Positions 6,757-33,197 of a DNA stretch of 41,428 nt are shown here, one piece after another. Every line of letters begins with the position of its first letter. Position 1 is the stretch's first letter. Source of the DNA: an uncultured Pseudomonadota bacterium (GTDB lineage Bacteria; Pseudomonadota; Gammaproteobacteria; Steroidobacterales; Steroidobacteraceae); the NCBI GenBank assembly GCA_903929455.1, contig CAIYVA010000029.1, positions 1 through 41,428 on the forward strand, given 5' to 3'. The notes below the pieces were generated by a model. It was not told where the DNA came from. It was given only the letters and a program-made list of their open reading frames with translations, and did not search any database. A program made the position numbers and the translations under genes.

Positions 6757-6846
6757 GGGTGAGCGCGCCGACGGCTGTTCATGTCGATTGCCCTGCGTTG
6801 ACGCAACGCCGGCCTGCCGGCTGCGCACGCGCGTGTGCCTGGCAGG

Positions 6847-15824: not shown

Positions 15825-17195
15825 TCAGCATTCCGGGACATTGACCGCGAGACCACCCTGCGAGGTCTCTTTGTAAATAGAGGACATGTCCTCGCCCGTT
15901 TGTCGCATGGTGGCAATGACTTGATCTAGGGATACTTTGTGCGTGCCGTCGCCATGCATCGCGAGGCGAGCGGCATTGATGGCTTTGACAGAGCCCATCG
16001 CATTGCGTTCGATGCAGGGGATCTGTACTAGACCTGCGATGGGATCGCAGGTCAGGCCGAGATTGTGTTCCATGCCAATCTCAGCGGCATTCTCAATGTG
16101 CTCATTGCTGCCATTCAGTGCAGCCACTAGCCCCGCAGCAGCCATAGAGCAGGCAACGCCCACCTCACCTTGGCAGCCCATTTCCGCACCTGAGATCGAT
16201 GCGTTTTTCTTATACAACATGCCGATGGCCGCACTGACCAGCAGGAAGCGAATCATGCCCTCATCCGAGGCGCTAGGCTCGAAACGCCGGTAGTAGGCCA
16301 GTACCGCTGGAATGATGCCCGCTGCGCCGTTGGTAGGAGCCGTGACCACTCGCCCCCCTGCGGCATTTTCCTCGTTTACCGCGAGGGCGTAGGCGTTGAC
16401 CCAGTCCATCGCGTACATCGGCGAGCCCGGATTAGCTTCCATCAGTAGTTTACTTAGCTTCGGTGCGCGACGACGGACTTTGAGTACGCCTGGGAGAATG
16501 CCTTCCGCTGCGAAACCGCGTTCCATGCACGATTGCATGACGTGCCAGAGCTTCATTAGATGCGCGATCGTTTGTTCTTTCGGTCTAAACGCGTTTTCGT
16601 TGGCCATGACTAGCTCATGCAGTGCCAAGCCATGGGCATTGGCAATACTCAGTAGCTCGGTGCCAGAGTTAAAGTCATAAGGGATCGTTACTTTTGCGCC
16701 AACCGCTGAGGGCGCGTTGATTTCATCTGCGCGCGCGATAAATCCGCCCCCAAGGGAGTAATACTCTTCGCGTAGTAAAACGTGATTGTTGGCATCCAAC
16801 GCGGTAAAGCGCATACCGTTAGAGTGGTGCGGTAAGGTTTGATCGCGATGCCAAAGCACATCCATCGGCTCATCAAACGGTATGAGCTTTTCGCCGGCTA
16901 GCAGCAGTTGTCTCACGTGCCGAATGCGCTGTAGCGTCGGTTCGACCAAGGTGGGATCTAACTCGTCCGGCGCATGGCCCTCAAGGCCGAGTAAAATAGC
17001 CAAATCGGTGCAATGTCCGCGGCCCGTGAGGGCTAGCGAGCCGTACAGTTGAGCGCCCACCTTGGCCGTGCGCTCGAGTAATCCTTGCTCGCGCAGTGTG
17101 TGCGCAAAACGCCGAGCCGCATTCATTGGGCCCATGGTATGCGAGCTGGAGGGGCCGATGCCGATTTTGAAAATATCGAGAACGCTGAGTGTCAT
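15825..17195 (-). CDS. sdaA: L-serine ammonia-lyase, single-chain, iron-sulfur type
   Basis: Deaminates L-serine to pyruvate and ammonia with a [4Fe-4S] cluster. The 456 residues contain the N-terminal [16 protein letters not shown] motif of the beta domain and the alpha-domain [20 protein letters not shown]. Cluster cysteines are visible in [13 protein letters not shown] and IPCIERN. The length is that of the fused single-chain form. The start codon is 22 bp from a perfect 12-bp palindrome (17217-17228). Confidence 0.95.
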
Positions 17196-17489
17196 AGGCG
17201 CAGTTTGACTGGGTTAGCGGTATACCGCAATTCCCATCGGCGCTGATTGGGTAGACAATTGACCCGTCCGTCACCGTTGGCAGGCTGGGGCGCCTCAGTG
17301 GGCTGCATTTTGTTCGTGCAATGACCCGCAGTCCATACCCTGTGGCGGTGTGCTTTGTGCGTGTCGTGCGTATCCAGAGTGCGTCGTGAAACAGCGTTAT
17401 GAGGCCGCTGGCCTGCTCGTTCAGTTGCCGACGACGTCGGTCACTGCATGGCGTATTTTTAACAGCGGTCACACCGCTTTGGGGGCGAT
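17196..17489. promoter_or_regulatory. divergent promoter region sdaA / DUF4404 with a 12-bp palindrome
   Basis: A 294-bp gap without a credible gene. GCGGTATACCGC at 17217-17228 is a perfect palindrome next to the sdaA start and could be an operator. No clear consensus promoter boxes could be assigned by eye. Confidence 0.4.
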
Positions 17490-17735
17490 ATGTCTGAACA
17501 GTCACTGTCCGTTTTGTTGACCAAATTACATGCGGCACTGGCCGACAGGCCAACGATGAGTTCGGATGAGCGGCGATTAATTGATGTGGTGATCGCCGAT
17601 CTCCAGAAAGTAGATCGTGCCGTTGATACGCGACAGGGTCTGAGTGAGCTGGTCGTCCACTTTGGCGTGAATCATCCCACCGTGGCCGGTGTGCTGCGCG
17701 AAGTGATGTCTTTGCTTTCGCACGCGGGTGTCTGA
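17490..17735 (+). CDS. DUF4404-family small protein
   Basis: An 81-residue, mostly helical soluble protein resembling the DUF4404 family: an N-terminal SEQSLSVLLTKLHAAL helix, an acidic middle with DERRLIDVVIADL, and a C-terminal FGVNHPTVAGVLREVMSLLS motif. The function is unknown. The GTG of the next gene follows two bases after its stop, so it heads a three-gene operon with an acetyltransferase and a deacetylase. Confidence 0.75.
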   Translation: MSEQSLSVLLTKLHAALADRPTMSSDERRLIDVVIADLQKVDRAVDTRQGLSELVVHFGVNHPTVAGVLREVMSLLSHAGV

Positions 17736-17737
17736 GC

Positions 17738-18229
17738 GTGCCCGAGGCTTTGTCTTTAAGGCTCGCTACATCGGCTGACTTGCCCTTTGTGATGGCGACC
17801 GAGCGTTTGCCTGGCTATGAACATTTGACGGCGCAATGGTCCTTAGAGGAGCACCAGTGGGCACTGGCGCAAGCGCACACCCGTTATTTGCTTGCGCTCA
17901 GTCCCTCACGGGGTGAGGTCGGATTCGTGATTTTGCAGCCCGTGGCGGATCAGCATGAGGGTACTAAGCTTAAGCGAATGTGTGTCAGTACCCCTGGGCA
18001 GGGCGTAGGGGGTCAGTTTTTGAGTGCAGTGATTCACTGGGTATTTGATCGCTTGCCAACCGACCGGCTATGGCTAGATGTATTTAGTCACAATGAACGT
18101 GCGCGACGTGCCTATCGCCGCGCGGGTTTTTCTGAAGATGGGACATTGCGAGCGGCTTATCGGTGCTCGGACGGATCCATAGCGGATCGCATACTCATGT
18201 CCGTACTGCGTTCCGAGAGGTGCGTATGA
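17738..18229 (+). CDS. GNAT-family N-acetyltransferase
   Basis: A 163-residue acetyl-CoA-dependent acetyltransferase starting at GTG 17738, two bases after the DUF4404 stop. The GNAT fold is visible: LKRMCVSTPGQGVGGQFL is motif A (acetyl-CoA pyrophosphate loop) and WLDVFSHNERARRAYRRAGF is motif B. The acceptor is unknown. Its stop overlaps the start of the deacetylase gene (ATGA). Confidence 0.85.
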   Translation: MPEALSLRLATSADLPFVMATERLPGYEHLTAQWSLEEHQWALAQAHTRYLLALSPSRGEVGFVILQPVADQHEGTKLKRMCVSTPGQGVGGQFLSAVIHWVFDRLPTDRLWLDVFSHNERARRAYRRAGFSEDGTLRAAYRCSDGSIADRILMSVLRSERCV

Positions 18230-18933
18230 AATGGGTCATGGCCGTGTGCTTACTCAGTATGACTTATTTAGGTGGGCGTACGCTTGCCGCATCGCGTCTT
18301 GCGCCGGATGAATGGCCATCCACCGTTGTCACTCAGGTAGCCAGTTCGCACAAAGTGGTTGCTCTCACCTTTGATGCGTGTGAAGCCGGTACACGCATGC
18401 CCTTAGATCAGTCGATCATCGATGTTTTACTGGCGCGGCGCATCCCATTTACCGTATTTATGGGCGGACGATTTGCGCGTGATAACAGTGCAGAAGTACG
18501 CGCACTGGCCGCGTTACCCTTTGTCTCTATTCAAAATCACAGCTGGAGTCATCCGAAGGATATGCGCGCCCTCACTGATGAGCAGGTGCGCGTAGAGGTC
18601 ACTCGGGCTCAGCAGATGTTGACGCAAGTCACGGGGTACACACCTACTTTGTTTCGATTTCCCGGCGGCCACGCAGATCAACGAACGGTTGATCTGGTGC
18701 GAGACATGGGTCTGCAGGTGGTGCACTGGCGTTGGCCTGAGGGTGATCCGGATCCTCGCATGGATGCCGATGCGATGGTGGCACGAACGCTTGGGCGGAC
18801 GCGATCGGGCGATATTTTGGTATTTCACATCAACAGTCGCGGTTGGCACACCGCAGAGGCGCTGCCCCAGATTATTGATGGCCTCAGTGCGCGTGGGTTT
18901 CAGTGGGTGTTGTTGGATCAAGCGTTGCGATAG
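18226..18933 (+). CDS. exported polysaccharide deacetylase (NodB-like)
   Basis: A 235-residue carbohydrate esterase family 4-type enzyme with a Sec signal (1-22). Motif 1 is TFDACE (48-53, a known variant of TFDDG), motif 2 is NHSWSHP with His105 and His109 for metal binding, and motif 3 is RFPGGH. Such enzymes remove acetyl groups from cell-envelope polysaccharides or peptidoglycan. I start at the ATG overlapping the GNAT stop rather than at 18163, because only the shorter form begins with the signal peptide. Confidence 0.85.
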   Translation: MKWVMAVCLLSMTYLGGRTLAASRLAPDEWPSTVVTQVASSHKVVALTFDACEAGTRMPLDQSIIDVLLARRIPFTVFMGGRFARDNSAEVRALAALPFVSIQNHSWSHPKDMRALTDEQVRVEVTRAQQMLTQVTGYTPTLFRFPGGHADQRTVDLVRDMGLQVVHWRWPEGDPDPRMDADAMVARTLGRTRSGDILVFHINSRGWHTAEALPQIIDGLSARGFQWVLLDQALR

Positions 18934-18972
18934 CCAAGATGCGCATACGAAAGCCCGATGAGGGGAGGATGC

Positions 18973-21048
18973 CTACGGCGCATCGTGCCCCGCCAACGGG
19001 CGACCCGTGGCGGTCGCGCGTACGATCGCTTCGGCTAGATAGTCAGGTGCCGCGGCCGTTTGGGCGCGACGCTCCGATTGTGACAGGGTGACATGAGGAT
19101 CGCTGGCGCCTGCGCGTAACGCGGCATCGAGGGCTAAGGCATGCGCAATGTCGCGTGCGTATGCGATGGCCTGATCAGCGTCATTGAAATCTCGACTGCC
19201 TTTGGGGTCATGTACCCGAAAAAGTTTAAAAGTCGGTTGATTAATGACGATATCGACGTTTTGTGAGACCACGCCTGCGACGGCGCCGACGGCGTTACAG
19301 ACGGCGGCATGTTCAGGGATGGACAGTGGGGTCGCGAGCCGTTTGGCTACGAGATCGTAGTAAGCGCCCACCGGTGCGCCGATGGCCACCAAGGGACAGG
19401 CCAGTTCAATGCGCGCATTCAATAAAGACGAAAACGGCTTACCGGCAACGACATCGTGCATCAGTTGATCGCCTAGCGTCCCGAAGCGACCATTCTTGGC
19501 CTCAATCGCGGGGTCCTGTGCGAGTGCGGTGTCGAGAATAATGCGTCCAGAGGCTTGTACGACATGCTCATAGACGCGCTCGCACAGCGCCTCTACCGTG
19601 ACCGCCGTACGCGCGGCGCGCGTATTGCGTTCTTCAACGGTGAGAATCTGCGCGCCGAGGCGAGCCGCTTCCGCATCCCATCCAGACTGACGACCTAAGA
19701 TGTGCATCGCGTCACTCGGTGTAAATGCGGCGATCGTGGCAAGGCCCGCGTCCGCTAAGCGCTGCAGGGCATGCAACCCGGCAACGCTGTTGACGAGCGT
19801 CGAGGCTTTTACGGGGTGCGTCTTAAGTGCATCCCAAACGCGACGATCTAGCCCTTCGATGTGGGTGGGTGCTTCTCGGCCTGGATTTCTGAAAGCGAAG
19901 TGCGCGGGGAAATCAGGCAGAGTCTCTTGCTGCGCGAGTAATCGCAGTTCTGCCAAAACCGTCGGTACTTGGTGGGCAAGTAAGCTGAGTGGCATGGCTT
20001 TGCGTGGCCCCACCAGTAAGCGGCTGTCACGCGAGAAGCTGACTTCGCTGTCGCCTCCTAGGCCAGTCGTTCGTACATCGACCGCCTCTACCATGGTGCG
20101 CCATCCGCCAATCAATGCGCCATCCGGACTGATCACCGGTCGGCCGCCACGGACCACGGCCACATCGGTGGTGGTGCCGCCCATATCCGACACCACAAAA
20201 TCTTTAAGGCCGGTCAAAAACCCGGCGCCGACCACGCTGGCGGCAGGGCCTGACAGAACCGTTTCGACTGGGTATTCAAGGGCTAGGCTCGCTTTCATCA
20301 GAGAGCCATCTCCCTTGACGATCATCAGGGGTGCGGCGACGGCTTCGGCCGCTAAGACCTCTGTGAGGGCCTCTACTAAGTGGCGGATTTGTGGTGTGAG
20401 ACGTGCATTCAGTGCAGCGGTCAGTGCGCGTCGTGGCGCGTCGAGCTTGGAGCTCAGTTCATGGGCGCAGGTCACTGATTTATTGCACAGGGTACGCACA
20501 CGTTCACGCGCCCGTAACTCGTGACTGGGGTTGCGTACCGAGAAGTGACTGGCGATGGCAAAGGCTTCTACTTTGGCACCATATTGTCTAACCGCTTCAT
20601 CAATGGCCGCCTCATCCAGTGGATGAGATTGATCGCCGGTGGCGTCATGGCCGCCGGTGATTCGAACGATCATGCCACCCCGTTCCTTGGCAAGCCCTGA
20701 ACGCTCAACCATGGCGTCATCAAATCCGATCAGCAGGGTGCAGATGGGACTAAAACGATTTTCAACGACGGCATTCGTGGCGAGTGTCGTCGATACGGAG
20801 ACCAGACTGACGTCTTCGCGTTTGGCGCCCTGCGGCAATGCGGCCAACACATTACGGATGGCGCCACCGATACCGATGGCGAGATTCCAGTGGGTCGTTA
20901 ATGCTTTGGCAGTAGCGACGACTTGTTGCTTGGCATCCAACAAGACTGCGTCTGTAAACGTACCGCCGGTGTCTAGGCCAAGCCACAAGTCATGTGATGT
21001 TGGGCTGTGTGACGAGGGCGTTTTGGGCGTCACAGGGTCATGCGTCAT
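18973..21048 (-). CDS. hydantoinase/oxoprolinase family protein (HyuA-like)
   Basis: A 691-residue ATP-dependent amidohydrolase-family protein. The N-terminal phosphate-binding LGLDTGGTFTDAVL, SVSTTLATNAVVE, SGPAASVVGAG and VVSDMGGTTTDVAVV segments are typical of the HyuA / 5-oxoprolinase A half (actin-like ATPase fold). No HyuB-type gene lies next to it, so the partner is missing locally and the substrate is uncertain. The ATG at 21048 precedes a polar 20-residue lead; the frame extends to 21159, but that part looks non-coding. Confidence 0.85.
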   Translation of the reverse strand: MTHDPVTPKTPSSHSPTSHDLWLGLDTGGTFTDAVLLDAKQQVVATAKALTTHWNLAIGIGGAIRNVLAALPQGAKREDVSLVSVSTTLATNAVVENRFSPICTLLIGFDDAMVERSGLAKERGGMIVRITGGHDATGDQSHPLDEAAIDEAVRQYGAKVEAFAIASHFSVRNPSHELRARERVRTLCNKSVTCAHELSSKLDAPRRALTAALNARLTPQIRHLVEALTEVLAAEAVAAPLMIVKGDGSLMKASLALEYPVETVLSGPAASVVGAGFLTGLKDFVVSDMGGTTTDVAVVRGGRPVISPDGALIGGWRTMVEAVDVRTTGLGGDSEVSFSRDSRLLVGPRKAMPLSLLAHQVPTVLAELRLLAQQETLPDFPAHFAFRNPGREAPTHIEGLDRRVWDALKTHPVKASTLVNSVAGLHALQRLADAGLATIAAFTPSDAMHILGRQSGWDAEAARLGAQILTVEERNTRAARTAVTVEALCERVYEHVVQASGRIILDTALAQDPAIEAKNGRFGTLGDQLMHDVVAGKPFSSLLNARIELACPLVAIGAPVGAYYDLVAKRLATPLSIPEHAAVCNAVGAVAGVVSQNVDIVINQPTFKLFRVHDPKGSRDFNDADQAIAYARDIAHALALDAALRAGASDPHVTLSQSERRAQTAAAPDYLAEAIVRATATGRPLAGHDAP

Positions 21049-21301
21049 GAGAAGGTCCAAACGGTCGGCAGTAGGGTAGAGAGACGTGCGAACAACTGAC
21101 TCAAGCTGCGTCTCTGCAGGCAGTTGAAGCCGCGGTGAGCACGGTCGAGATGCTAGCACGCACGTGGCAAAGGGGCTGAGTAAATTATTTGAATCAATAG
21201 GTTAGAGTAAATAACCGCACTGGATTGGCAGGTGCGCCAGCGGTCAATAGTCGAGCACCGAGGTGTGTTGCCCTAGACAGACCGGCTTAGGCGCCCGACG
21301 T

Positions 21302-22240
21302 TTATGGCCCTCTTTGGAATAGCAGGCGGCCATTGACGATGAGGATGCCGATCAGCACGAGGATAGCGCCCGTACCGAAGCGCGACTCTATGGTGTCGCC
21401 TAGCAGTGCATGGCCAAACATCACGCCGAACAATGGAGTCAGCAGTGACAGCAGCATCAGGCGCGAGGTCAGATAGTGGCGTAGCAGACGAAACCAAACG
21501 AGATAGCTAATGATTGATATCACCACCGTTTGAAACAACACGGCGGTGATGGCCATGGTCGACCAAGTGACGTGCACCTGATCAGTGGCATAGGCAAAGC
21601 AACCGAGTGTTACGGCGGCAATTAATACTTGATAGAGCACCACCTTGGCAGTGGATGCGTGGCTAATGCGACCGCGGCGTAATACAACATTGCTGGCGCC
21701 CCAGGCTGCGCCACCGAGCAGTGCGAACAGATCGCCCGTTAACACGTCGATGACTGGTCGGCTGCTGTATGACATGAAGGCGACCGCAATGCCTAGAAAA
21801 GCGAGGACTACGCCACACCACTGTGCGCGACTGAGACGCTCTTCCGGTAAAAACTGCATGCCCAGCGCCGTGAAGATCGGTGCTGAATACAGAAAGACCA
21901 CCGTATGGGCGGCTGTGGTGAGGGTGAGGGCCTGACCAACCAGAATGAATTCGCATGAGAATAGCAGCCCGAGTAGGGCGCCGCTTCTCAATGCCCCATC
22001 GTCGAACAGCGTGGCGCCTTCTTGTCGCAAGACCACCAGCGCAAAAAAGACCGATGCCCCCGCAAAGCGGATGGCGAGTTGCAAGGTGGGAGCGATGTCG
22101 GAGGACACCGATTTCATGGCGACTTGTTGGAAGCCCCACACGATGCACAGTCCAAGCACCAAACAGGTGGCCGCCAGATCTAGGGGGCGGCGCGTGAGTG
22201 GCGCATTGATGGGTTTAGGTGTGGGTGGATTCTCTGCCAT
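21302..22240 (-). CDS. EamA/DMT-family transporter
   Basis: A 312-residue ten-helix transporter of the drug/metabolite superfamily: LGLCIVWGFQQVAMKSV in helix 1, HTVVFLYSAPIFTALG in the first repeat and LLSLLTPLFGVMFGHALLGD in the second. It is probably an exporter of a small metabolite. It is distinct from the other EamA gene at 11313. A 184-bp gap without a gene separates its start from the RiPP operon end. Confidence 0.88.
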   Translation of the reverse strand: MAENPPTPKPINAPLTRRPLDLAATCLVLGLCIVWGFQQVAMKSVSSDIAPTLQLAIRFAGASVFFALVVLRQEGATLFDDGALRSGALLGLLFSCEFILVGQALTLTTAAHTVVFLYSAPIFTALGMQFLPEERLSRAQWCGVVLAFLGIAVAFMSYSSRPVIDVLTGDLFALLGGAAWGASNVVLRRGRISHASTAKVVLYQVLIAAVTLGCFAYATDQVHVTWSTMAITAVLFQTVVISIISYLVWFRLLRHYLTSRLMLLSLLTPLFGVMFGHALLGDTIESRFGTGAILVLIGILIVNGRLLFQRGP

Positions 22241-22424
22241 GGGTATCTTCGGCGTGTGTGGCCGTGATTATGGCCCACTGGCCACCGGCACGCCATCCTG
22301 GCGTAGATGATCGACAGGTCTGCCTAATCAAGGGCTGGCCCGTCGCTCGGGAGGCGATCTTGGGTGCGTGCGTGCTCATGATGCAACGCGCTATACCGTC
22401 ACTCACGCACCCGTCATCAGGCGC

Positions 22425-23699
22425 TTAGTGGTGATGGTGATGCGGTTTGTGATTGCCGTGAATCCAGTGCTGTACTTGCGAGAGTCGCGTGGTCTCGGCT
22501 TGGGAGTCGGGGCTGCTTTGCACGTTCAGCATATTCGGTAGGCGGCTGGAGAGCAGTGACCACCACTTGCGTGGATAGTCGAGGTAAATAAACGGCGAGT
22601 CTGCTTTCTTGCCATAAAGAGCAGAAATCGACACGCGGCTCGGGAATATTTTTTGCGCGATAAAGCGCAGGCGTTCGCTTAGTGAGGCTTTGTCTGTCAG
22701 CATCTGCGTGAGTCGTGTGTCTCCTCGGGATTCATAGTCTCGAAGCATCAGTAGTGATGCAGCCTCGACAATGGCCGGTAGTGACGGGTCGTTAAGAGGT
22801 GCTACCTCATGCCACTGAATGGGTTGGGGTCCCCAATAGCGTTCGGTCATCTTGAAAGCGAGCACGCAGCTTTTGAGCCAGTCACCTGCGGCCGCACTTT
22901 TCCAAAACCCGGGCCAATCAATGGGTTCGCTCTGCAGTAGCCAGGCAATGTCACTTAAGATCAATGGCCCGTTGTCAAATTGGTGATGATCAACCGCGTG
23001 CACAATTAAGTGTAAAAGTAAGTCCGTGGGTGACAGAAATCGCAGCGTCTCCGTACCCATGGTTCTCGTAATGCTGCGCTCCCATAGGAGTGTTTCTTCT
23101 AATGCATCGGGTTGGTCAAGCACGATCATATTCGGATTTAGCAGCTGTGCATGAATTTCCACGTTGGCGCGCTCTGAGGCGGAACGTAGCGGAGGTAGGT
23201 GCTGCGACAGTTTCATAAAAGACAGCGGGTCACCCGGATATTCCGCTACCCGTTTTAAGCCGCCATCGAGGGCGGCCTGATAAGCGTCTAACACCCGACT
23301 TTTATGAATGAGGAGATCGAGATCTCTTAGGGGTCTCAAGGCGGCCTTGGGGTAGCTGTGATACGCCAAAAAGGATCCCTTGAGTGCCAGGTAAGGAATG
23401 CCCGCCTGTTCTAGAATCCGATGCACTAAGGTGAGTTCACGTTGTAATTCTAAGGCGCGCAGGGTCGATTGTTTATAGCTGGCTTCAAGATAAGCTTTGA
23501 AATCAGGGGGGATGGCGAGATCTGCGTGGTGGTGCTGCAGTTGCCAATGCAGCAGTGGTGCAAGGCGATGCGATTTAACGGTGGCTTTGATGGCCACCCA
23601 GTCGCTCGCATCCAATTCGGCGACGGCTGCTGTGTCGACTACTCGAATCGATGAGAGCATGTCGAGTAGTAGGGTGTGGCGAAGCGCAGCTGATCTCAT
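22425..23699 (-). CDS. nucleotidyltransferase-fold protein of a RiPP locus
   Basis: A 424-residue member of the large nucleotidyltransferase family found beside lasso peptide genes. The signature LALKGSFLAYHSYP lies at 104-117, followed by RPLRDLDLLI with the metal-binding DxD at 126-128. In the pseudomycoidin system a related protein is linked to sugar addition on a phosphorylated lasso peptide; a similar tailoring role is inferred here. The start overlaps the ABC gene stop (ATGA). The C-terminus carries five consecutive histidines (NHKPHHHHH), a natural metal-binding-looking tail. It is the last gene of the four-gene operon. Confidence 0.8.
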   Translation of the reverse strand: MRSAALRHTLLLDMLSSIRVVDTAAVAELDASDWVAIKATVKSHRLAPLLHWQLQHHHADLAIPPDFKAYLEASYKQSTLRALELQRELTLVHRILEQAGIPYLALKGSFLAYHSYPKAALRPLRDLDLLIHKSRVLDAYQAALDGGLKRVAEYPGDPLSFMKLSQHLPPLRSASERANVEIHAQLLNPNMIVLDQPDALEETLLWERSITRTMGTETLRFLSPTDLLLHLIVHAVDHHQFDNGPLILSDIAWLLQSEPIDWPGFWKSAAAGDWLKSCVLAFKMTERYWGPQPIQWHEVAPLNDPSLPAIVEAASLLMLRDYESRGDTRLTQMLTDKASLSERLRFIAQKIFPSRVSISALYGKKADSPFIYLDYPRKWWSLLSSRLPNMLNVQSSPDSQAETTRLSQVQHWIHGNHKPHHHHH

Positions 23700-25441
23700 G
23701 GGATGCGACCTTGCTGTGCCTTAACGTCATCCCAGCTGCCTTGGGCGATGATGCGACCGCCATCTAATATAACGACCTGGTCCGCATGCTCTAAGGTAGG
23801 GAGTCGATGGCCAATGATGACCACCGTTAAATCGCCGTGTAGATGCTCGATGGCCTCACGAATCCTAGCCTCGTTATCTACATCGAGTGCGCTGGTCGCC
23901 TCATCCAAGATGAGTAGCGCTGGTTTTTTGAGCAGTGCACGAGCTAAGGCCAGGCGCTGCCGTTCGCCGCCCGATAAGAGCACGCCCGCATCACCCACCA
24001 CCGTATCTAGGCCAAGTGGCATTTTAAATACAAACGTAGCGGCCGCGCGGGTAAGAACGGCATTGAGCGCTTCATCGCTCGCATCCGGTTGGCCCCAGAG
24101 TAAGTTATTACGGATAGTGTCGTTAAACAGGAACACCTCTTGCGGTACGTAGGCGACCGAGTGACGCCAGCGTTGACGTAAGGCGCCGACCAAAATATCA
24201 CCATCGATTAGCACATGACCGCTGTCGGGCGTGATCAGGCCCATCAACAGATCTGCCAAGGTGCTCTTGCCGGCACCTGAGGCGCCCATGATGGCGGTCG
24301 TGGTGTGCACTGGAAAGGTGAGTGAGATATCCCCAAGCGCAGGCAGGCCGCGTTCTGGATAACGGACGGCGACGTGTGCTAGGCGAATGTCTGTTTGGAT
24401 GGTCAGTGGCGCAGTCGCTGCTGGCATGCTCGGTTCTGCATTCTGGGTAGCTTCGTCTAGTAAACGATAGGTATCCCACGCAGCCGGCAGCGCTTGCAGC
24501 CACTGTTGATAGAGTTGCTGCAGTTCCGTAAATAAGGGAATCAGACGACTGAAAACAAACACCAGCGTCAGCAGAGTCGGCGTTGCGAGATGCCACAGCG
24601 TGAGCCCAAGAAATAAGTAGACGGCAAGAAGGGCTGTGCCACCGACTTGCAGAAAGCCACGCGCGGCACTCGCACTTCGGCTGAATTCGGTTTGTTGTTT
24701 TTGTAGCGTATAGACCGTTCGTGAGAAGTCACTCACCAAACGGTTTTCCGCACCCAGTATTTTTGCTAACTTCGCACCTGCAAGGCTTTCATGCGTCTTG
24801 GCGTGTAACTCTCGGCTTGCTTTGCTAAGACTTTCGCCTAAGCCAAATGACTTATGCCGTTGCTTTGCGACCAAGACTAGGCCTGCAGCACCGCTTGCGA
24901 GCGCTAGGCTCGTCATATAAAAAGACAGTGAAAATGCAACCAACAGATACGCGACGATCGTGGCGAGCTTGCTGATAAAAGAAACGCCCAAACTGAGACC
25001 ATTGCCAACACGAGTGACGTTAGTCAAAATTAGATTGGAGTGATCCGATTGACGTCGTGCAGAAAGCCACCGCCATTCAGAGAACATGAGTGCCGTAAAG
25101 CATCGAGTGCGTAGTCGATCGATCAGTGCAAGCTGCGTGTTGGTCGCAGCTTTGTCACGTATGAACACCAAGATGCTGCGTAAGCCGATGATCACTACGA
25201 ATAAGCTGAGTAGGCTGCCGGTGGCAATCGGGATGTGTAGATAGCCGAGCGTTTCCCTGATCAGGTGCAAGGTGTCTCCGTTTGACTGACCGGCGCCTTG
25301 CAGCAGACTTAATAATGGCACGAGAAGCAGTATGCTGATGCCATCAGACAGGCCAGATGAGATCATGAGCACAAGCAGGCCTGCGATCTTTATAGGCGGC
25401 ACGTCGACCAGCAAGCGACGGATGGCAGACAGTGAGTTCAA
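23696..25441 (-). CDS. ABC exporter with fused membrane and ATPase domains (RiPP export)
   Basis: A 581-residue type I half-transporter that should work as a homodimer to export the mature peptide. About six membrane helices lie in 15-310. The ATPase domain has Walker A GASGAGKST (386-394), a YVPQEVFLFNDT Q-loop, signature LSGGERQ (489-495), Walker B LLILDEATSALD (509-520) and a GHRL switch histidine. There is no C39 peptidase domain, fitting leader removal by the separate B2 protein. It overlaps its neighbours on both sides by 4 bases (ATGA), so the operon is translationally coupled. Confidence 0.9.
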   Translation of the reverse strand: MNSLSAIRRLLVDVPPIKIAGLLVLMISSGLSDGISILLLVPLLSLLQGAGQSNGDTLHLIRETLGYLHIPIATGSLLSLFVVIIGLRSILVFIRDKAATNTQLALIDRLRTRCFTALMFSEWRWLSARRQSDHSNLILTNVTRVGNGLSLGVSFISKLATIVAYLLVAFSLSFYMTSLALASGAAGLVLVAKQRHKSFGLGESLSKASRELHAKTHESLAGAKLAKILGAENRLVSDFSRTVYTLQKQQTEFSRSASAARGFLQVGGTALLAVYLFLGLTLWHLATPTLLTLVFVFSRLIPLFTELQQLYQQWLQALPAAWDTYRLLDEATQNAEPSMPAATAPLTIQTDIRLAHVAVRYPERGLPALGDISLTFPVHTTTAIMGASGAGKSTLADLLMGLITPDSGHVLIDGDILVGALRQRWRHSVAYVPQEVFLFNDTIRNNLLWGQPDASDEALNAVLTRAAATFVFKMPLGLDTVVGDAGVLLSGGERQRLALARALLKKPALLILDEATSALDVDNEARIREAIEHLHGDLTVVIIGHRLPTLEHADQVVILDGGRIIAQGSWDDVKAQQGRIP

Positions 25442-25971
25442 GTGGTTTCAGCCTTTTCAGTATTAGGCCCGGAAAAGCAACCGACGACTGTGAACTGCTC
25501 AAAGCCATCGCCGCCCGTGACACGAATGCGTCCAGAGGCAACCCATGCGTGTGCTTGCATGTGCGGTGAGGTGGCGTCTCTCATCAGTCCAAAGTAGATG
25601 GCATAGGGGATTGAGTAGACGCCCAATAGGAGTCGCGCAGTGATTGCTTGCGGAAAGCAGTTGGAATTCCACGGTGTGTAGCGTGCGATGGTCTTGACCG
25701 TTCTGCCAATGAGTTTGGCGCGATCCTCTTGAGCGGGGGTAAGTACAGGGACCCAAGGCGTGGCCCCTGCCCAGGTGCCTAGATGGGCTGCTAGGCGACG
25801 AAACGAAAAGGTAAATATCAAGGCTTTACTGATGCCGAGTAAAAACCATGCTGGTACAAACCACAGCTTGGTGAATAAGGGCTGCTGCCAGAAAGTCAGC
25901 GCCTTGCGTCGAAACGTGGATGCCAGTGAAGCGGGAGGTGCCAACGGGTACCCCTCGATATCCTTAACCAA
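25438..25971 (-). CDS. lasso-type B2 leader peptidase (transglutaminase-like)
   Basis: A 177-residue protease of the lasso peptide B2 family, which cuts the leader from the precursor. The conserved catalytic pieces are present: Cys105 in WNSNCFPQAITA, then LLLGVYSIPYAIYFGL and His141 in MQAHAWVASG. It carries an N-terminal hydrophobic part (38-56) and a Trp/Pro-rich stretch before the catalytic domain. It overlaps the PqqD-like gene upstream by 8 bases, as is common for split B1/B2. In lasso loci B2 is followed or preceded by the cyclase C; here the next gene is the exporter and no cyclase is present. Confidence 0.88.
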   Translation of the reverse strand: MVKDIEGYPLAPPASLASTFRRKALTFWQQPLFTKLWFVPAWFLLGISKALIFTFSFRRLAAHLGTWAGATPWVPVLTPAQEDRAKLIGRTVKTIARYTPWNSNCFPQAITARLLLGVYSIPYAIYFGLMRDATSPHMQAHAWVASGRIRVTGGDGFEQFTVVGCFSGPNTEKAETT

Positions 25972-26260
25972 CCACCAGTAAGCCGTTTTTTAGCATGACG
26001 TGCAGAAAGCCCATCACGTCTTGCTCACATTGCTCTTGCGTCACCGCGTATTCTTTTCGGATCTCAGCACACATCGTCTGGGCAGTCGTGACTGTCGCCA
26101 ATAACTCCCACACGCGCGGGCCAATGCCGCTGATGCCGTAATAAGATCCCTTTTCGATACTCATCATGACCAGTTCGCCATCCATCTCTGTACCAATCAG
26201 ATCTGGGTTGCGAGTCAAGCGAGTGGTCAGAGTGAGGTCAGTCGGTGGGTTAATGTTCAT
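25964..26260 (-). CDS. PqqD-like RiPP recognition element (B1)
   Basis: A 98-residue PqqD-family protein that should bind the precursor leader and deliver it to B2. Family features are LTRNPDLIGTEMDGELVMMSIEKGSYYGISGIGPRVWELL, here read in two halves (strands, then helix), and a C-terminal helical pair ending HVMLKNGLLVV. I chose ATG 26260; a TTG at 26287 would add nine residues. It is the first gene of the operon B1-B2-exporter-nucleotidyltransferase and is divergent from the kinase, with a dyad between them. Confidence 0.88.
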   Translation of the reverse strand: MNINPPTDLTLTTRLTRNPDLIGTEMDGELVMMSIEKGSYYGISGIGPRVWELLATVTTAQTMCAEIRKEYAVTQEQCEQDVMGFLHVMLKNGLLVVG

Positions 26261-26298
26261 AGTGTGAAACGGTGCGGCTTGGGCCAAGGGTGATTCTG

Positions 26299-26314
26299 CT
26301 TTAATTCATTAAAG
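26299..26314. promoter_or_regulatory. dyad CTTTAAT-TC-ATTAAAG between the divergent RiPP genes
   Basis: Seven-base perfect inverted arms with a 2-base spacer, in the 118-bp gap between the B1 ATG (26260) and the kinase ATG (26379). Position suggests an operator controlling both directions. The regulator is unknown, as no transcription factor gene is in the window. Confidence 0.4.
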
Positions 26315-26378
26315 ACTTATCTCAAGATTGTGCCCGAGGATCGGGTTGCATCGAATTTTAAAACTGCTGGATGTGACC

Positions 26379-27311
26379 ATGTTCACGAAAAATACCGCTG
26401 CCAGACGATACGGCGCCTACGACTTAGTCGTGCAAAGTGAACTGGAATTACCGGAGTTGCCTGAGTTGCCGATGGGGCCCGGCGATGTCGCTCCAAGTGA
26501 TGTGCAGATTACGTTTGGATCTCTTTCAAGAGAGCAGTTGCTGGGCGGTGAGTTTGTCTCGCGTTCCTTATGGATATCACCACACAGTCTGTGGCTGCGC
26601 ATACCTGAGGTTGGTCAGTTTTTGGTCTCTCATGGACGCGAGATATGTATTGATCCGGTGCCAGGTGTAGACGAAGACAGCATTCGGTTGTTTCTACTCG
26701 GCTCTGCATTCGGCGCTGTATTGTTTCAGCGCGGCTTACTGGTGATGCATGGCAATGCCATTCAGATTGGTGAGCAGTGCATGATTTGTGTTGGGCCATC
26801 CGGTGCGGGTAAGTCCACGACGGCGGCGGGCTTTATGCAGCGTGGCTATTCGGTGCTGGCCGATGACGTGGTACCGATTGATGCAGACTGCCGTGCTTTA
26901 CCGGGCTTCCCTCGTATTAAGCTTTGGCAGGATGCCGCTCAACAGTTGGCGGTCGGAACCGATGATCTGCGCCGGATCCGTCCAAATTTCGATAAATACA
27001 ATCTGCCGCTGGAGCGTGCTTTTTCGCTGTATAAATTGCCGGTTCGATGGATTTATATTTTAGATCCAAGGGAGGAGGCGACGACAGTGACGGTGACCCC
27101 CATTCATGGCATGAATCGATTCCTGCCGCTCCAAGAGAACACCTATCGGTTGGAGTATCTGCAGGGGATGGCCTTAGAGGCCGAGCATTTGAAGTTGTGC
27201 GGCGTTTTGGCCGGGCGGATTCATCTGGCGCGTATTACGCGACCTAAGACTGGGTTTCAGCTCGATGCCCTGATGGATGCCATGTTGCAGGATATGCAGC
27301 AGAACCCCTGA
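26379..27311 (+). CDS. HPr kinase-like RiPP peptide kinase
   Basis: A 310-residue P-loop kinase of the HPr kinase-like group found in lasso loci. The Walker A GPSGAGKSTTA (139-149) is clear, followed by the acidic pair in VLADDVVPID (159-168). The family's N-terminal half is poorly conserved, as here. In paeninodin the equivalent kinase phosphorylates the C-terminal Ser of the precursor; the precursor encoded next to this gene also ends in Ser, making the same role likely. The ATG at 26379 is preferred over TTG 26328. It is divergent from the B1 operon and convergent with the precursor gene. Confidence 0.85.
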   Translation: MFTKNTAARRYGAYDLVVQSELELPELPELPMGPGDVAPSDVQITFGSLSREQLLGGEFVSRSLWISPHSLWLRIPEVGQFLVSHGREICIDPVPGVDEDSIRLFLLGSAFGAVLFQRGLLVMHGNAIQIGEQCMICVGPSGAGKSTTAAGFMQRGYSVLADDVVPIDADCRALPGFPRIKLWQDAAQQLAVGTDDLRRIRPNFDKYNLPLERAFSLYKLPVRWIYILDPREEATTVTVTPIHGMNRFLPLQENTYRLEYLQGMALEAEHLKLCGVLAGRIHLARITRPKTGFQLDALMDAMLQDMQQNP

Positions 27312-27416
27312 GGGGGATCAGGCGATGAGAGGGTTACAGGCTGGCCTAAGCCAGTCTGGCTAGTCAGTTACGATGGCTACCTGTGACGAGCTGTCTATCG
27401 CCAAAAAAAGAGCAAA

Positions 27417-27442
27417 AAAAACCACCCGAGCGGGTGGTTTTT
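27417..27442. terminator. bidirectional terminator between kinase and precursor genes
   Basis: ACCACCCG (27421-27428) pairs with CGGGTGGT (27431-27438), flanked by A-runs on the left and T-runs on the right, so both strands end in a U-tract. It sits 106 bp after the kinase stop and 29 bp from the precursor stop. Confidence 0.85.
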
Positions 27443-27470
27443 CACGTCAGTCAGACTGAACGTTTCGGTC

Positions 27471-27602
27471 TTAGCTGCAGAGAAGATCGTCTGCACCGTC
27501 GTGGTCGCCATCGCACTGGTCCTTAGGCGGCTTCTGGGTCTCGCGCACGGCCAGCTCGATCAGCTGAGGAGCAGCGTAGGTCTTGAGGTTTTCGGTGTTC
27601 AT
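27471..27602 (-). CDS. RiPP precursor peptide, paeninodin-like leader with atypical core
   Basis: A 43-residue peptide. An AAGGGA ribosome site lies 8 bases before ATG 27602, and the bidirectional terminator follows the stop. The leader has the lasso recognition pattern Y9-x-x-P12-x-L14, then LAVRET with Thr22 where lasso leaders have the conserved -2 Thr. The predicted core after Gln23 is KPPKDQCDGDHDGADDLLCS. It starts with Lys rather than Gly/Ala, has Asp at core positions 5 and 8, two Cys (core 7 and 19), six Asp in all and a terminal Ser suited to the neighbouring kinase. The leader match and context make it the substrate of this locus; the final structure is unknown. Confidence 0.8.
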   Translation of the reverse strand: MNTENLKTYAAPQLIELAVRETQKPPKDQCDGDHDGADDLLCS

Positions 27603-28049
27603 GTGTCGTTTCCCTTTCACTTAAGTAAATCTAGATTCGAATCGAAAAAAAGTTGCTCGGCCGTCCGGGCGCCTTGGCTCTGCAGCCTTGTCAGGAGGTC
27701 AGAGGGACCGTTAGGGGGTCTGTCCGTACCGTCGATGAGTCAGCTGATGGGCGAATAGTGCGGGGATTGGGCTTTTGCCCCCACCCCCGTATGGGGGCGA
27801 GTTCAGTAAAAAGCCGTTTCAGTCACGTTTTGCGCCCAGACGCGGGTGCGCGCGCGCTGATTTTTAATGGCGAGGACTCTTAAAAAATGTATTAAATACA
27901 TAAGGTTACGTATTATTTGCGTCGCGTTGGGTGAGTGATGGCTCACGCCCGCTGGCGCCACCTTTTTCAGGGGGGGCGGTGATTTGGTGGTGATTCGGGG
28001 GTCTAGGCCTCAGAAAATCCTGATCTGCGCGCCGTTTGCGCTTGGCCAC
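27603..28049. promoter_or_regulatory. 447-bp non-coding region upstream of the precursor gene
   Basis: No second precursor or other gene is visible. It should hold the precursor promoter (minus strand), but no consensus boxes are certain. A hairpin CCCCC-GTAT-GGGGG lies at 27784-27797. A perfect 15-bp palindrome, ATGTATTAAATACAT, lies at 27887-27901, about 285 bp upstream of the precursor ATG in an A/T-rich patch, and may be an operator. Confidence 0.45.
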
Positions 28050-29585
28050 CTACCAGGGCGTGGGCTTGTAGTCTTTTAAAAACTGTCCCCAGGTGTGTTT
28101 CCCAGTGATGTGCCCTGCGAAAATGGGATCGACGATGCGTGCGGCGCCATCGATGATATCTAAAGGTGGAGCGAAGCCGTCAGCAGCCTTGCGTGCGGCG
28201 TGTACAACCGGATCTTCGTCCGTCACCCAACCAGTATCCACAGCATTCATATGGATTCCATCTTGAATGAAATCCGCTGCACTGGTGCGCGTCATCATGT
28301 TCAGTGCCGCTTTGGCCATGTTGGTGTGTGGGTGTTTATCAGTCTTGGTGGTGCGATAAAATTGACCCTCGACGGCGCTCACGTTAACCACATGTTTGTG
28401 TGCGCCCGGTGTTTTAACCATCAATGGTTTTAGTCGCGCATTGAGTATGTAGGGAGCGATCGCATTGATTAGTTGCACCTCAAGCAGTTCAGGGGTCTCC
28501 ACCTCATGCAAGCGTAGACGCCAGCTATTGGTGCGACGTAGATCCACTTGCTGACGATCCTCGTCGAACGTTCCTATTGGGAAGAGGGTCTCGCTATTGC
28601 GGTAGTCGTCATCGAGATAGCGGCGCTGTGAGAGGGAGGCGCTATGCAGTAGGCCTTCGCCTTGTGCGCCCATCGTTAAGCCGATGAGTGCACCTGTGTT
28701 TTCTGAGGGCTGATTTAGCAAAGTCGCTTGTAGCCTATGGTGATGCGTTAGCGGTCCTAGAAGAGCGTGATTGAGCGTGTGCGGTGTGGCTTTTTCTTTG
28801 TCCAATAAATGCTGAAAAAACCCAGCTGGCCGACGCACCGTCTGACAGGCATTGTTCACGATGTAATCCAGACGCGGCAGCCGTTCCAAGAGAAAACGGG
28901 TGAATAACTCGACGCTTGGTGTATGCCGGAGGTCGAGGCCGTGGATTTGCAGGCGATCGTAGAAGATCGCAAAGTCAGGTTCTGCGGCATAGCGTTCTGC
29001 GGCATCGATGGGGAAGCGTGTAGTGACTACCACATAAGCACCCGCTCTCAGCAGTTTTAAGGACGCCATGAATCCGATCTTGACGCGCGCACCGGTAACC
29101 AGTGCGTAGTGTCCAGTGAGATCTGCTGTTTGCGATCGCTTGGCGTAGTTAAAATCACCGCAAGGTCCACAGAGAGAATCGTAGTAGCGGTGTACCGAGC
29201 TAAAAGGCGTCTTGCAGATGTAGCAAGTGAGTCCTTGTTTGAGGGTGGGTGGCTCCTCGGTCTGCGCGTTCGGTTCTTCTAGCCACAGCGGTTCATAGGT
29301 GGTTTTTCGACGTTGTACGCGAAGACCCGTCTGCTCGATTACGTGTCGATCATGGGCTTGGGCCGCGTGCCGTTCGGCGCGCCTGAAGGCTTTGGCCATC
29401 TTCACTAAGCTTGCTTTCTCTGGCTTTGAGACAAGACCTGCCAGAGTGAGTAATTCGCGCCGTTGCGCTTGCGTTAAGTGCGTGAGACAAGCTCGATCCG
29501 CATCGATGTGGCGTAGCACCCGTAAGCACGCCTCAAGATCGGCATCCGTCAAGTCAGTGGTGTCATCGTGATTGCTTGCGCTCAT
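28050..29585 (-). CDS. long SDR-family protein with internal Cys4 zinc-ribbon and no canonical Tyr
   Basis: A 511-residue protein, twice the usual SDR length. The first 115 residues are charged helices. A four-Cys element follows (CYICKTPF ... LCGPCGDF), then a Rossmann domain with TGARVKIG, VNNACQTVRRP and a catalytic-position Ser in VVNVSAVEGQFY. The canonical YxxxK is TNMAK (HPHTNMAKAALNMMTR), so Tyr is replaced by Thr. This HPHTNMAK pattern appears characteristic of the subfamily as I recall it. Activity as a normal dehydrogenase is doubtful; the function is unknown. It stands alone between the RiPP locus and a small membrane protein. Confidence 0.75.
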   Translation of the reverse strand: MSASNHDDTTDLTDADLEACLRVLRHIDADRACLTHLTQAQRRELLTLAGLVSKPEKASLVKMAKAFRRAERHAAQAHDRHVIEQTGLRVQRRKTTYEPLWLEEPNAQTEEPPTLKQGLTCYICKTPFSSVHRYYDSLCGPCGDFNYAKRSQTADLTGHYALVTGARVKIGFMASLKLLRAGAYVVVTTRFPIDAAERYAAEPDFAIFYDRLQIHGLDLRHTPSVELFTRFLLERLPRLDYIVNNACQTVRRPAGFFQHLLDKEKATPHTLNHALLGPLTHHHRLQATLLNQPSENTGALIGLTMGAQGEGLLHSASLSQRRYLDDDYRNSETLFPIGTFDEDRQQVDLRRTNSWRLRLHEVETPELLEVQLINAIAPYILNARLKPLMVKTPGAHKHVVNVSAVEGQFYRTTKTDKHPHTNMAKAALNMMTRTSAADFIQDGIHMNAVDTGWVTDEDPVVHAARKAADGFAPPLDIIDGAARIVDPIFAGHITGKHTWGQFLKDYKPTPW

Positions 29586-29673
29586 GGCGCGTTATTGTAG
29601 GACTTTGTTGGCGCGCTGTGCCGGCCATGCCGTCTCTCATTGAGGCGCGCAAGCCTAGGTCGCGTCAGGATCA

Positions 29674-30018
29674 TCACTCGTCATCGGATAGGTGAAATTG
29701 ATGCAGTAAGCGATGGAGTACGGGGGCTGCGAGAATTCCGGTGACCACCAACAACACCAGCCCGCAATACAGGGCATAGCAGCCTGCGAATAGCTTAGCG
29801 GCGTCCGAGTGCATGGTATCCACAGGGCCCATGCCGCCCATCAGCATGGCCGCATTCACGAAAGCATCAACATACGAGAGGCCTTCGAGCCAGTGATAGC
29901 CCAGTATTCCAACTAGTAAGGATCCGATCATGAGTAAGGAGGCCAGTGCCCCATGCCGCACGATACGCGCTAAAAAATGCTCTTGGGGTGCGAGAGGATG
30001 ATGTCTTCTTTCGTACAT
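29674..30018 (-). CDS. small membrane protein resembling a two-helix pore domain
   Basis: A 114-residue protein with an N-terminal polar segment, a helix at about 24-42, a re-entrant-looking stretch (YVDAFVNAAMLMGGMGPVDTMH) and a second long helix (AAKLFAGCYALYCGLVLLVVTGILAAPVLH). The helix-loop-helix layout recalls the pore module of two-helix potassium channels, but the TVGYG filter is replaced by GGMGPV, so conduction is not implied. Found as a stand-alone gene here. Confidence 0.6.
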   Translation of the reverse strand: MYERRHHPLAPQEHFLARIVRHGALASLLMIGSLLVGILGYHWLEGLSYVDAFVNAAMLMGGMGPVDTMHSDAAKLFAGCYALYCGLVLLVVTGILAAPVLHRLLHQFHLSDDE

Positions 30019-30504: not shown

Positions 30505-30581
<77 letters not shown>

Positions 30582-30604: not shown

Positions 30605-31145
30605 AATAAGATCGGCTGATCGAAAATTCCGCGAGCTGTTGAAGCGCTGTCGTATGGATCGATTCGGGTATCGATTTGAGCGCTTGAATAGCCTAGTCGG
30701 CCTCGCTTTTGGCGACAATTACAGTGTACTCAAGGCTCCCGCATGATTCAATCTCGGAAATGACCGCCAGCAAATCCCTTAATCCGCTCGCCTCAATCGC
30801 TGAGGTAAGCAACGCTTTTTGAGTCGTCGTTCTGGCCTTTGGCGTCTGGATGAGCGGCAGGGTTAGTGCTCATCATTTTCGCTGTTTTTGCCGCGCTCAG
30901 CCGGGCTGGTGCGGTCATTCAGCAAATCATTAACCAGTTGCACGGCATTCACCCAATGATGGCCATGAAGTAGCAAGCGCTGTTTGGTTGGGCAAATTAG
31001 TGACGGCCAGTAAGGCCGCTCTGCGCGCCAGAATCAAATAATCGGGTGCTTTCGCGGTAACTTACCTAAAGAGAGTGCTATTCGCTGGTGCCGGTGTAGA
31101 TAGGCCGAATCAGTTAACTAATCCCATGCATTTGTAATCCACAGG
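30605..31145 (-). pseudogene. ispB: decayed second copy of the ispB 3' half
   Basis: About 540 bp matching ispB from roughly residue 156 to the C-terminus. Recognisable pieces are SYRESTRLFDSGAQ (ispB: IYRKTARLFESGAQ), QLVNDLLNDRTSPAERGKN (QLVDDSLDYRSSPAERGKN) and the end SISRSY. Several frameshifts and stops (for example TAG within AKSEAD*AIQAL) disable it. The block 30605-30752 is about 95 percent identical to ispB, with the first 84 bases exact. Beyond a sharp boundary near 30752 similarity falls to roughly 60 percent. It ends TAT TGA where ispB ends TAT TAA. Confidence 0.85.
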
Positions 31146-32195: not shown

Positions 32196-33197
32196 TTAAT
32201 AAGATCGGCTGATCGAAAATTCCGCGAGCTGTTGAAGCGCTGTCGTATGGATCGATTCGGGTATCGATTTGAGCGCTTGAAGAGCCTGGTCGGCTTCGCT
32301 TTTGGCGAGCATCGCAGTGTACTCAAGGCTCCCGCATGATTCAATTGCAGCGATGACAGCGGGTAAGTCTTCAAGGCCGCCACTTTCAATGGCGCGTGTC
32401 AGTAGCGCCTGTTGCGTCGCTGAGCCGGTGCGTAGGGCATGGATAATCGGCAGGGTAGGTTTGCCCTCAGCCAGATCATCACCGATGTTTTTACCACGCT
32501 CTGCGGGACTACTCCGATAATCCAATGAGTCATCTACGAGTTGGAACGCGTTGCCTAAGTGTTTGGCGTAGGTAGCCAGTGCCGTTTGGGTCTTTGCATC
32601 CGCGCCGGCTAATAACGCGCCCACCTGTGCGCCGGACTCAAATAAGCGCGCTGTCTTTCGGTAAATCACATCCAAATAGTGCTGCTCACTGGTAGCCGGA
32701 TTGCGCGTGTGCATGATTTGCAACACTTCGCCTTCAGCGATCACGTTGGTGGCATCCGCCATCACGCCCATCACGGGCAGGCTGTTTAAGCTCACCATTA
32801 ATTGAAAAGCGCGTGAATAGAGGAAATCACCCACCAACACGCTGGTGGCATTGCCCCATACTTCATTGGCGGTATGTCGCCCACGGCGTTGACTTGATCC
32901 ATCGACGACATCGTCATGCAGTAAGGTTGCTGTGTGAATGAACTCGATGATGACCGCGCCTGCGATCTGCGGGCCTAATGCTGCGGCACCGGCCGCGCGA
33001 GCGGCTAATAAGACCAGTAAAGGACGTAAACGCTTGCCGCCGGCGCCTATGATGTAGCCTGACACTTGGTTTACGAGGGCGACATCGCTGGTTAATTCCC
33101 GGCGAATCATGGCATCCACTGCGTCAAGATCGGCCAGCACGCTGTGGCGGATCTGCTCGAGGGGGCTTAGGGCGTGAGACGGCATAGAGGCGGGCAT
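32196..33197 (-). CDS. ispB: polyprenyl (octaprenyl) diphosphate synthase
   Basis: Elongates farnesyl diphosphate to the ubiquinone side chain. 333 residues with the first Asp-rich motif DDVVD (95-99), the second DDSLD (222-226), GGKRLRP at 53-59 and the GKPTLP region. Two possible starts, ATG 33197 and ATG 33185, lack a clear ribosome site. The last 148 bp are nearly identical to a downstream pseudogene copy, so this 3' end is the intact arm of a duplication. It is divergent from rplU. Confidence 0.93.
   Translation of the reverse strand: MPASMPSHALSPLEQIRHSVLADLDAVDAMIRRELTSDVALVNQVSGYIIGAGGKRLRPLLVLLAARAAGAAALGPQIAGAVIIEFIHTATLLHDDVVDGSSQRRGRHTANEVWGNATSVLVGDFLYSRAFQLMVSLNSLPVMGVMADATNVIAEGEVLQIMHTRNPATSEQHYLDVIYRKTARLFESGAQVGALLAGADAKTQTALATYAKHLGNAFQLVDDSLDYRSSPAERGKNIGDDLAEGKPTLPIIHALRTGSATQQALLTRAIESGGLEDLPAVIAAIESCGSLEYTAMLAKSEADQALQALKSIPESIHTTALQQLAEFSISRSY

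Follow-up and report, generated by a model that had tools for sequence, protein, structure and literature searches.

What can a lasso-type locus make when the gene for its asparagine-synthetase-like cyclase (C) is missing? The question is raised by a locus on contig C29 of an uncultured proteobacterium (genome G000; 2.44 Mb in 244 contigs, 95.6% complete), the whole of which, 41,428 bp, was analysed and is called the window below. From the open reading frames (ORFs), an initial annotation had described genes for B1, B2, an ATP-binding cassette (ABC) exporter, a nucleotidyltransferase, a divergent kinase and a small precursor, and had reported that no C gene exists in the 41 kb. Every one of these genes lies where it had been placed (Table 1), the overlaps of 8, 4 and 4 bp in the nucleotidyltransferase-exporter-B2-B1 operon are as described, and the absence of C is upheld by tblastn with the two cyclases of a same-genus species, G130 (CAIOZU010000001.1, uncultured proteobacterium Umea_bin-02876), which gives no match at E<=1 across the whole window. 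Judging from the genes alone, we consider the chance about even that this is a kinase-type (paeninodin/pseudomycoidin-like) lasso locus from which the cyclase has been deleted, and whose product would be a linear phosphorylated peptide.

A lasso-type gene set without a cyclase

Two groups of characterized systems bear on what such a locus could make. In excerpts of PMC9266682 and PMC8498205, the substrate of the paeninodin-type kinase is described as the linear precursor, phosphorylated at its C-terminal Ser, and not the threaded peptide; a hexose on this phosphate is linked to the nucleotidyltransferase PsmN, though a host enzyme may be responsible instead. The linear polyphosphorylated peptides (LPPs) of Bacillota, according to excerpts of Popov et al. 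2026 (PMC13381572), are encoded with a RiPP recognition element (RRE), a kinase, a nucleotidyltransferase, an exporter and a type I signal peptidase, with no cyclase; their genes in B. subtilis gave phosphorylated, leader-cleaved linear peptides, and deletion of the nucleotidyltransferase had no detectable effect.

A comparison of the locus with the defining features of these systems showed that: 1) B1 (the RRE) and B2 (a transglutaminase-like protease) of lasso loci are both present, and in an alignment of 5 B2 sequences Cys105 and His141 are invariant. 2) The precursor has a leader motif of the lasso form [YW]xxPx and a T at -2. 3) The asparagine-synthetase-like cyclase of lasso loci was not found for the precursor. 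4) As in paeninodin-like loci, an HprK-like kinase accompanies a precursor with a C-terminal Ser; the kinase is identified by alignment and weak matches (Hpr_kinase_C 30.4 bits, below the Pfam cut-off of 33.3), and its Walker A motif GPSGAGKST is intact. 5) An RRE, a kinase, an NTP transferase and an MsbA-like exporter occur with no macrolactam cyclase, as in LPP loci. 6) Pfam searches of every window ORF of 170 aa or more (30 in all), of B1 and of the precursor found no type I signal peptidase resembling the LPP peptidase LppS. As one of the defining features tested is thus missing for each class, we assign the locus to neither the lasso peptides nor the LPPs.

Since the paeninodin-type kinase is described as acting on a linear precursor and LPPs work without a cyclase, the locus has what a linear phosphopeptide needs, with B2 as the peptidase. 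B1 would bind the YxxP leader and hand the precursor to B2, which would cut after ETQ; phosphorylation of the linear precursor at its C-terminal Ser would fall to the kinase, any decoration of the phosphate to the nucleotidyltransferase and secretion of the peptide to the exporter. The result would be a linear phosphorylated product, perhaps with a Cys7-Cys19 disulfide, and the lasso pathway would have become a linear one like that of LPPs, with B2 still the leader peptidase. Our broader proposal, that losing no more than the cyclase gene, with B2 kept, was enough to make a phosphorylated lasso pathway yield linear phosphopeptides, and that two species of a single genus thus reveal a second LPP-like route outside Bacillota, is tentative, and we hold it with somewhat less than even confidence.

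Table 1. Features of the locus in the window (positions of contig C29)
Feature	Position	Strand	Basis or remark
Nucleotidyltransferase, PsmN/LppN-like by role	22425..23699	-	PF14907 (NTP_transf_5), E 1.5e-45
MsbA-like ABC exporter	23696..25441	-	profile matches
B2 leader peptidase	25438..25971	-	NF033537 lasso B2, 81.5 bits (cut-off 33); PF13471
B1 / RRE, PqqD-like leader-binding protein	25964..26287	-	NF033536 lasso PqqD, 80.8 bits (cut-off 80); PF05402
HprK-like peptide kinase	26373..27311	+	weak HprK-family matches, alignment; start GTG 26373 or ATG 26379
Intrinsic-terminator hairpin, 3' of precursor gene	27416..27443	-	fold z -4.6; G130 counterpart at same place, z -3.0
Precursor, 43 aa	27471..27602	-	no family match; leader homologous to that of G130
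Interval between precursor and SDR gene, 447 bp	27603..28049	.	G130 equivalent 2248 bp, including 1695-bp cyclase gene
Conserved palindrome-like element CCCCCATNCGGGGGTGGGG	27779..27797	-	176 bp upstream of precursor ATG

Comparison with a sister species

G130 is collinear with the window over positions 16849-30018 (~13 kb), with protein identities of 85% for an oxoprolinase-like protein, 74% for EamA, 72% for the nucleotidyltransferase, 62% for the ABC exporter, 68% for B2, 60% for B1, 71% for the kinase and 78% for a short-chain dehydrogenase/reductase (SDR); the precursors are 51% identical over 37 aligned residues. The single large break in this collinearity is the precursor-SDR interval, about five times shorter in the window (Table 1). 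The gene that fills it in G130 encodes a 564-aa protein with an SGGIDS loop, whose best NCBIfam match is the lasso cyclase family NF033535 (E 3.5e-56; 191 bits, under the curated cut-off of 525). The view that C never adjoined the operon is thereby rejected. The initial annotation had further argued that the overlaps leave no place from which C was recently lost; this does not apply, because the C gene of the sister lies outside the overlapping operon, between the precursor and the SDR gene. Its wider alternative, a cyclase acting in trans or a non-lasso product, gains support from a leader-recognition, cleavage, kinase and export set that stands without its own C, even as the part concerning recent loss falls.

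No remnant of the cyclase was recovered from the gap between the kinase and the SDR gene: tblastn gave only chance-level pieces (best E 0.45), and a candidate remnant sought with blastn was rejected, the only matches being the upstream element (E 0.002), a piece of the precursor (0.015) and others at E >=0.77. In gene trees the window and G130 are sisters for the kinase (support 1.0), B1 (0.99) and B2 (1.0). The next nearest B2 is that of Azospirillum sp. SYSU D00513 (L158), where B2, B1, the kinase and C stand in the same order and strands, and whose cyclase is sister to that of G130 (0.87); a Minwuia metagenome-assembled genome (L151) has the full order of nucleotidyltransferase, ABC exporter, B2 and B1, then kinase, then C. 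With C kept in nearly all such loci (see below), the most economical reading is that the window's lineage lost it: the cyclase gene was most likely deleted there after divergence from the sister species, a direction that rests on two species plus outgroups.

The G130 locus is thus alike in its collinear, 60-72% identical biosynthetic proteins, and differs in having a cyclase, a core with S1 and E9, and a second cyclase and kinase with further candidate precursors nearby. On contig C1 of G130 (L041 15631-17103, L096 1721-4849) we observe two near-identical extra candidate precursors (SKIQSVLEFFTTDGRA[L/A]GVTS), a fourth one, and the second cyclase and kinase. Another genome of the genus, G297 (85% complete), has a nucleotidyltransferase, B2 and ABC gene in a different arrangement at a contig end and is uninformative.

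Rarity of cyclase-less kinase loci

How many such loci lack C, a question posed with the initial annotation, was scored on kinase loci of up to about 20 kb collected by class, phylum and named-genome searches and supplemented with other stretches, the window and a second locus of G000 (C101, see below) included; L146 and L204, which share their contigs with L041 and L154, respectively, were dropped from the census and the trees. By profiles iterated on the very sequences scored, C is present in 35 of the 37 stretches with kinase and B2, and in 25 of the 27 that also have B1 and the nucleotidyltransferase. The exceptions are the window and L139 of genome G377, and the latter genome has cyclases on another contig. 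In G377 the B1-B2-nucleotidyltransferase-kinase hub lies on contig C37, its kinase match holding one stop; stretch L160 (G377:C18:36501-56500) carries a precursor (5538-5714) with a cyclase (5725-7254) and another cyclase (17443-19347) with a precursor (19390-19560), each pair solitary among other genes. From the layouts in G377 and G130 it seems that a precursor-cyclase module can come apart from the hub of B1, B2, kinase and nucleotidyltransferase genes, so that annotation of a single locus can mislabel it as incomplete.

A further 24 stretches have the kinase without B2; C is present in 16 and absent from eight (L140, L144, L152, L159, L209, L223, L225, L228). L152 is a 5.7-kb contig, and L228 has kinase, nucleotidyltransferase and ABC genes near a contig end. 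L159 (Delftia sp. PS-11), where the kinase gene is broken between two frames and a whole-genome search for PF00733 gives two weak matches (E 5.5e-4, 9.6e-4), is apparently a decayed kinase-type locus. L140 (G586:C73:1-19700) combines a lasso-type HprK-like kinase and a sulfotransferase with two YcaO genes and TfuA-like, ThiF-like, peptidase-ABC and nitroreductase-like genes (names besides kinase, B1, YcaO and ABC assigned by eye); its genome has only two short PF00733 matches, and the kinase may serve other RiPP classes. L209, L223, L225, L144 and L228 are possible further cyclase-less systems or unrelated kinases. A separate B2 survey of the order found matches in 59 of 296 genomes, and the 49 stretches examined, mostly lasso clusters without this kinase, are excluded from the counts.

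Precursor and upstream element

The precursor consists of the leader MNTENLKTYAAPQLIELAVRETQ, with the motif YAAPQL, and the core KPPKDQCDGDHDGADDLLCS; the cleavage site between them, after ETQ, is placed from the T at -2. The core begins K1-P2-P3, and has D8, two Cys and a C-terminal Ser. It was compared with 33 cores from 24 kinase-type stretches, identical cores being shown once and several coming from close relatives (e.g. L214, L216, L217); the window and rows without a C-terminal Ser were left out, among the latter a pair of L233 cores that have D8 and start with S or A. At position 1 these cores have T, S, A, G, N, F, I, V or Q; Lys and Arg do not occur there (0/33; 95% upper bound 8.7% if the cores were independent, which they are not fully), and none has the Pro at position 2 seen in the window. 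Asp or Glu occurs at positions 7-9 in 25 of the 33; D8 of the window stands in a core where Asp makes up 6 of the 20 residues, so that its presence says little. The Lys1 core looks as if it were freed from the constraint of a cyclase, though one sequence is thin evidence.

Upstream of the precursor lies the conserved element of Table 1, with a G130 counterpart on the - strand (L041, core at 11898-11912). With one mismatch allowed, CCCCATNCGGGGGTGGGG has a single match in G000 and a single match in G130, in each case upstream of the precursor, and its backwards control has none. Because the element is kept amid DNA that hardly aligns between the window and G130, control of the precursor seems to be retained, and we regard CCCCCATNCGGGGGTGGGG as a candidate operator. 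A pattern scan gave 3 terminator-like sites against 2.0 expected.

Cyclisation in trans and other explanations

The most serious rival is that the precursor is cyclised in trans, by a cyclase encoded elsewhere in the genome or left unassembled, to a phosphorylated lasso peptide. The genome search proposed with the initial annotation returned one lasso-type cyclase, on contig C101, of which the contig start leaves a C-terminal part of 351 aa. Three more genes of the assembly match PF00733; they are of QueC, GuaA and tRNA thiouridylase (MnmA) type. The C101 cyclase stands beside its own precursor (ending in Ser), B1, B2 and kinase, with GT9- and pyruvyltransferase-like genes, and none dedicated to the window precursor was found. 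In G000 as a whole, B2, B1 and the kinase have two matches each, those to B2 and B1 all above cut-off. The N-terminal half of the C101 cyclase was not found in G000 through GATase_7, the three matches (frames of 614, 301 and 269 aa) being read from lengths and sister matches as a GlmS-like protein, a 301-aa amidotransferase and a cut PurF-like protein, so that its activity is putative. In the cyclase tree it belongs to a clade of 20 tips (support 0.99) from which both G130 cyclases are absent. The C101 precursor has no T at -2 and, by the same spacing, no Asp or Glu at 7-9, and stands outside the 33 cores. The tetranucleotide profile of C101 fits the window at 0.904 (pieces of the window 0.87-0.92, loci of three other genomes 0.71-0.73, G130 loci 0.94), which gives no sign of mis-binning, although this measure would not tell a close relative apart; the last 1.1 kb of C101 has 40% GC. 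The C101 cyclase could thus act in trans without being dedicated to the window precursor. Such sharing is favoured by the arrangement in G377, by G130, where a genome search found four candidate precursors and two cyclases with one B2 over cut-off, and by the T at -2 and D8 kept in the window precursor; the C101 cyclase's own company and clade and a Lys1 that has no precedent among the comparison cores speak against it, and on balance we think cyclisation in trans rather unlikely.

It is less probable still that the locus is recently dead, C having been lost, the rest having yet to decay and no mature product being made. The loss of an essential gene, the unusual N-terminus of the core and the lack of a sigma-70-like promoter nearby would fit this; however, the other genes are open, with lengths close to those in G130, and both the terminator hairpin and the upstream element, the latter between flanks that hardly align, are kept. 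That the contig merely skips a cyclase present in the organism is the most improbable account of all. The assembly is fragmented, the locus is on one contig only, and the last 70 bases of the contig, presumably adapter sequence, point to incomplete cleaning; yet collinearity with G130 extends to either side of the gap, the precursor element and SDR gene are in place, and no loose cyclase piece was found in the assembly except that on C101.

Against the deletion of the cyclase and a linear product, the account we favour, several observations have to be set. D8 is kept in the precursor, a weak point given the abundance of Asp in the core. A pattern scan of 26200-28100 found no sigma-70-like promoter. 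The cut cyclase on C101 exists, a further C could be missing since the genome is 95.6% complete and in 244 contigs, and in G377 the hub lies far from the cyclase genes. The L151 cyclase falls in another clade than that of G130, and the next nearest kinase (L147) and B1s (L208, L153) are not those of L158; because these placements conflict, genes of such loci appear to have been exchanged at times. Finally, although the genes that remain have open frames and a dN far below dS, an attempt to date the cyclase loss from these values fails, as dS is saturated or nearly so (infinite in 3 of 8 genes, 1.5-2.5 in the others); purifying selection across the entire divergence gives no date for the loss.

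Relation to known systems

With paeninodin and pseudomycoidin (PadeK/ThcoK, PsmK/PsmN) the locus shares separate B1 and B2, the HprK-like kinase, the exporter, an aromatic-xxP leader and the C-terminal Ser, and with pseudomycoidin also the nucleotidyltransferase. Paeninodins are reported to have WxxP (excerpts of PMC13381572), whereas the window locus has YxxP, a proteobacterial host in place of one from Bacillota, no C and a core starting with Lys1. The same excerpts show LPPs to share the RRE, HprK-like kinase, NTP transferase, MsbA-like exporter, YxxP leader and lack of a cyclase, and to differ in their type I signal peptidase LppS and in phosphorylation at Ser3 of a long core, where the window has a B2 of the lasso kind and a short core with Ser as its last residue; LPP RREs are described there as a separate Bacillota clade, whereas the window's C seems to have been lost from a lasso locus. 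Among the literature matches listed (titles and beginnings of abstracts), no cyclase-less locus with B2 and kinase appears besides the LPPs (PMC13381572, in excerpt); what is new here is a lasso-type locus without C, with B2 in place of the LPP peptidase. The two species of one genus, differing chiefly by C in an otherwise collinear locus, offer a natural cyclase-deletion comparison in which one can ask if the peptide is still phosphorylated, decorated, cleaved by B2 and exported when it is not knotted, and if lasso pathways can give rise to linear phosphopeptides by losing C.

Other features of the window

The only signal peptidase seen in the window by Pfam is a type II (LspA-type) gene at 40981, cut by the contig end. 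The final 70 bases of the contig (41359-41428) run on from this cut gene and are presumably Illumina adapter sequence; the first 13 bases of the adapter match the window at one place, against 0.05 expected, and none of the 239 collected loci. Beside a tRNA-Pro gene (30505-30581), the end of a polyprenyl synthetase gene is present in a 259-bp copy, 79% identical (30605-30863 and 32198-32456), which suggests a past duplication or integration.

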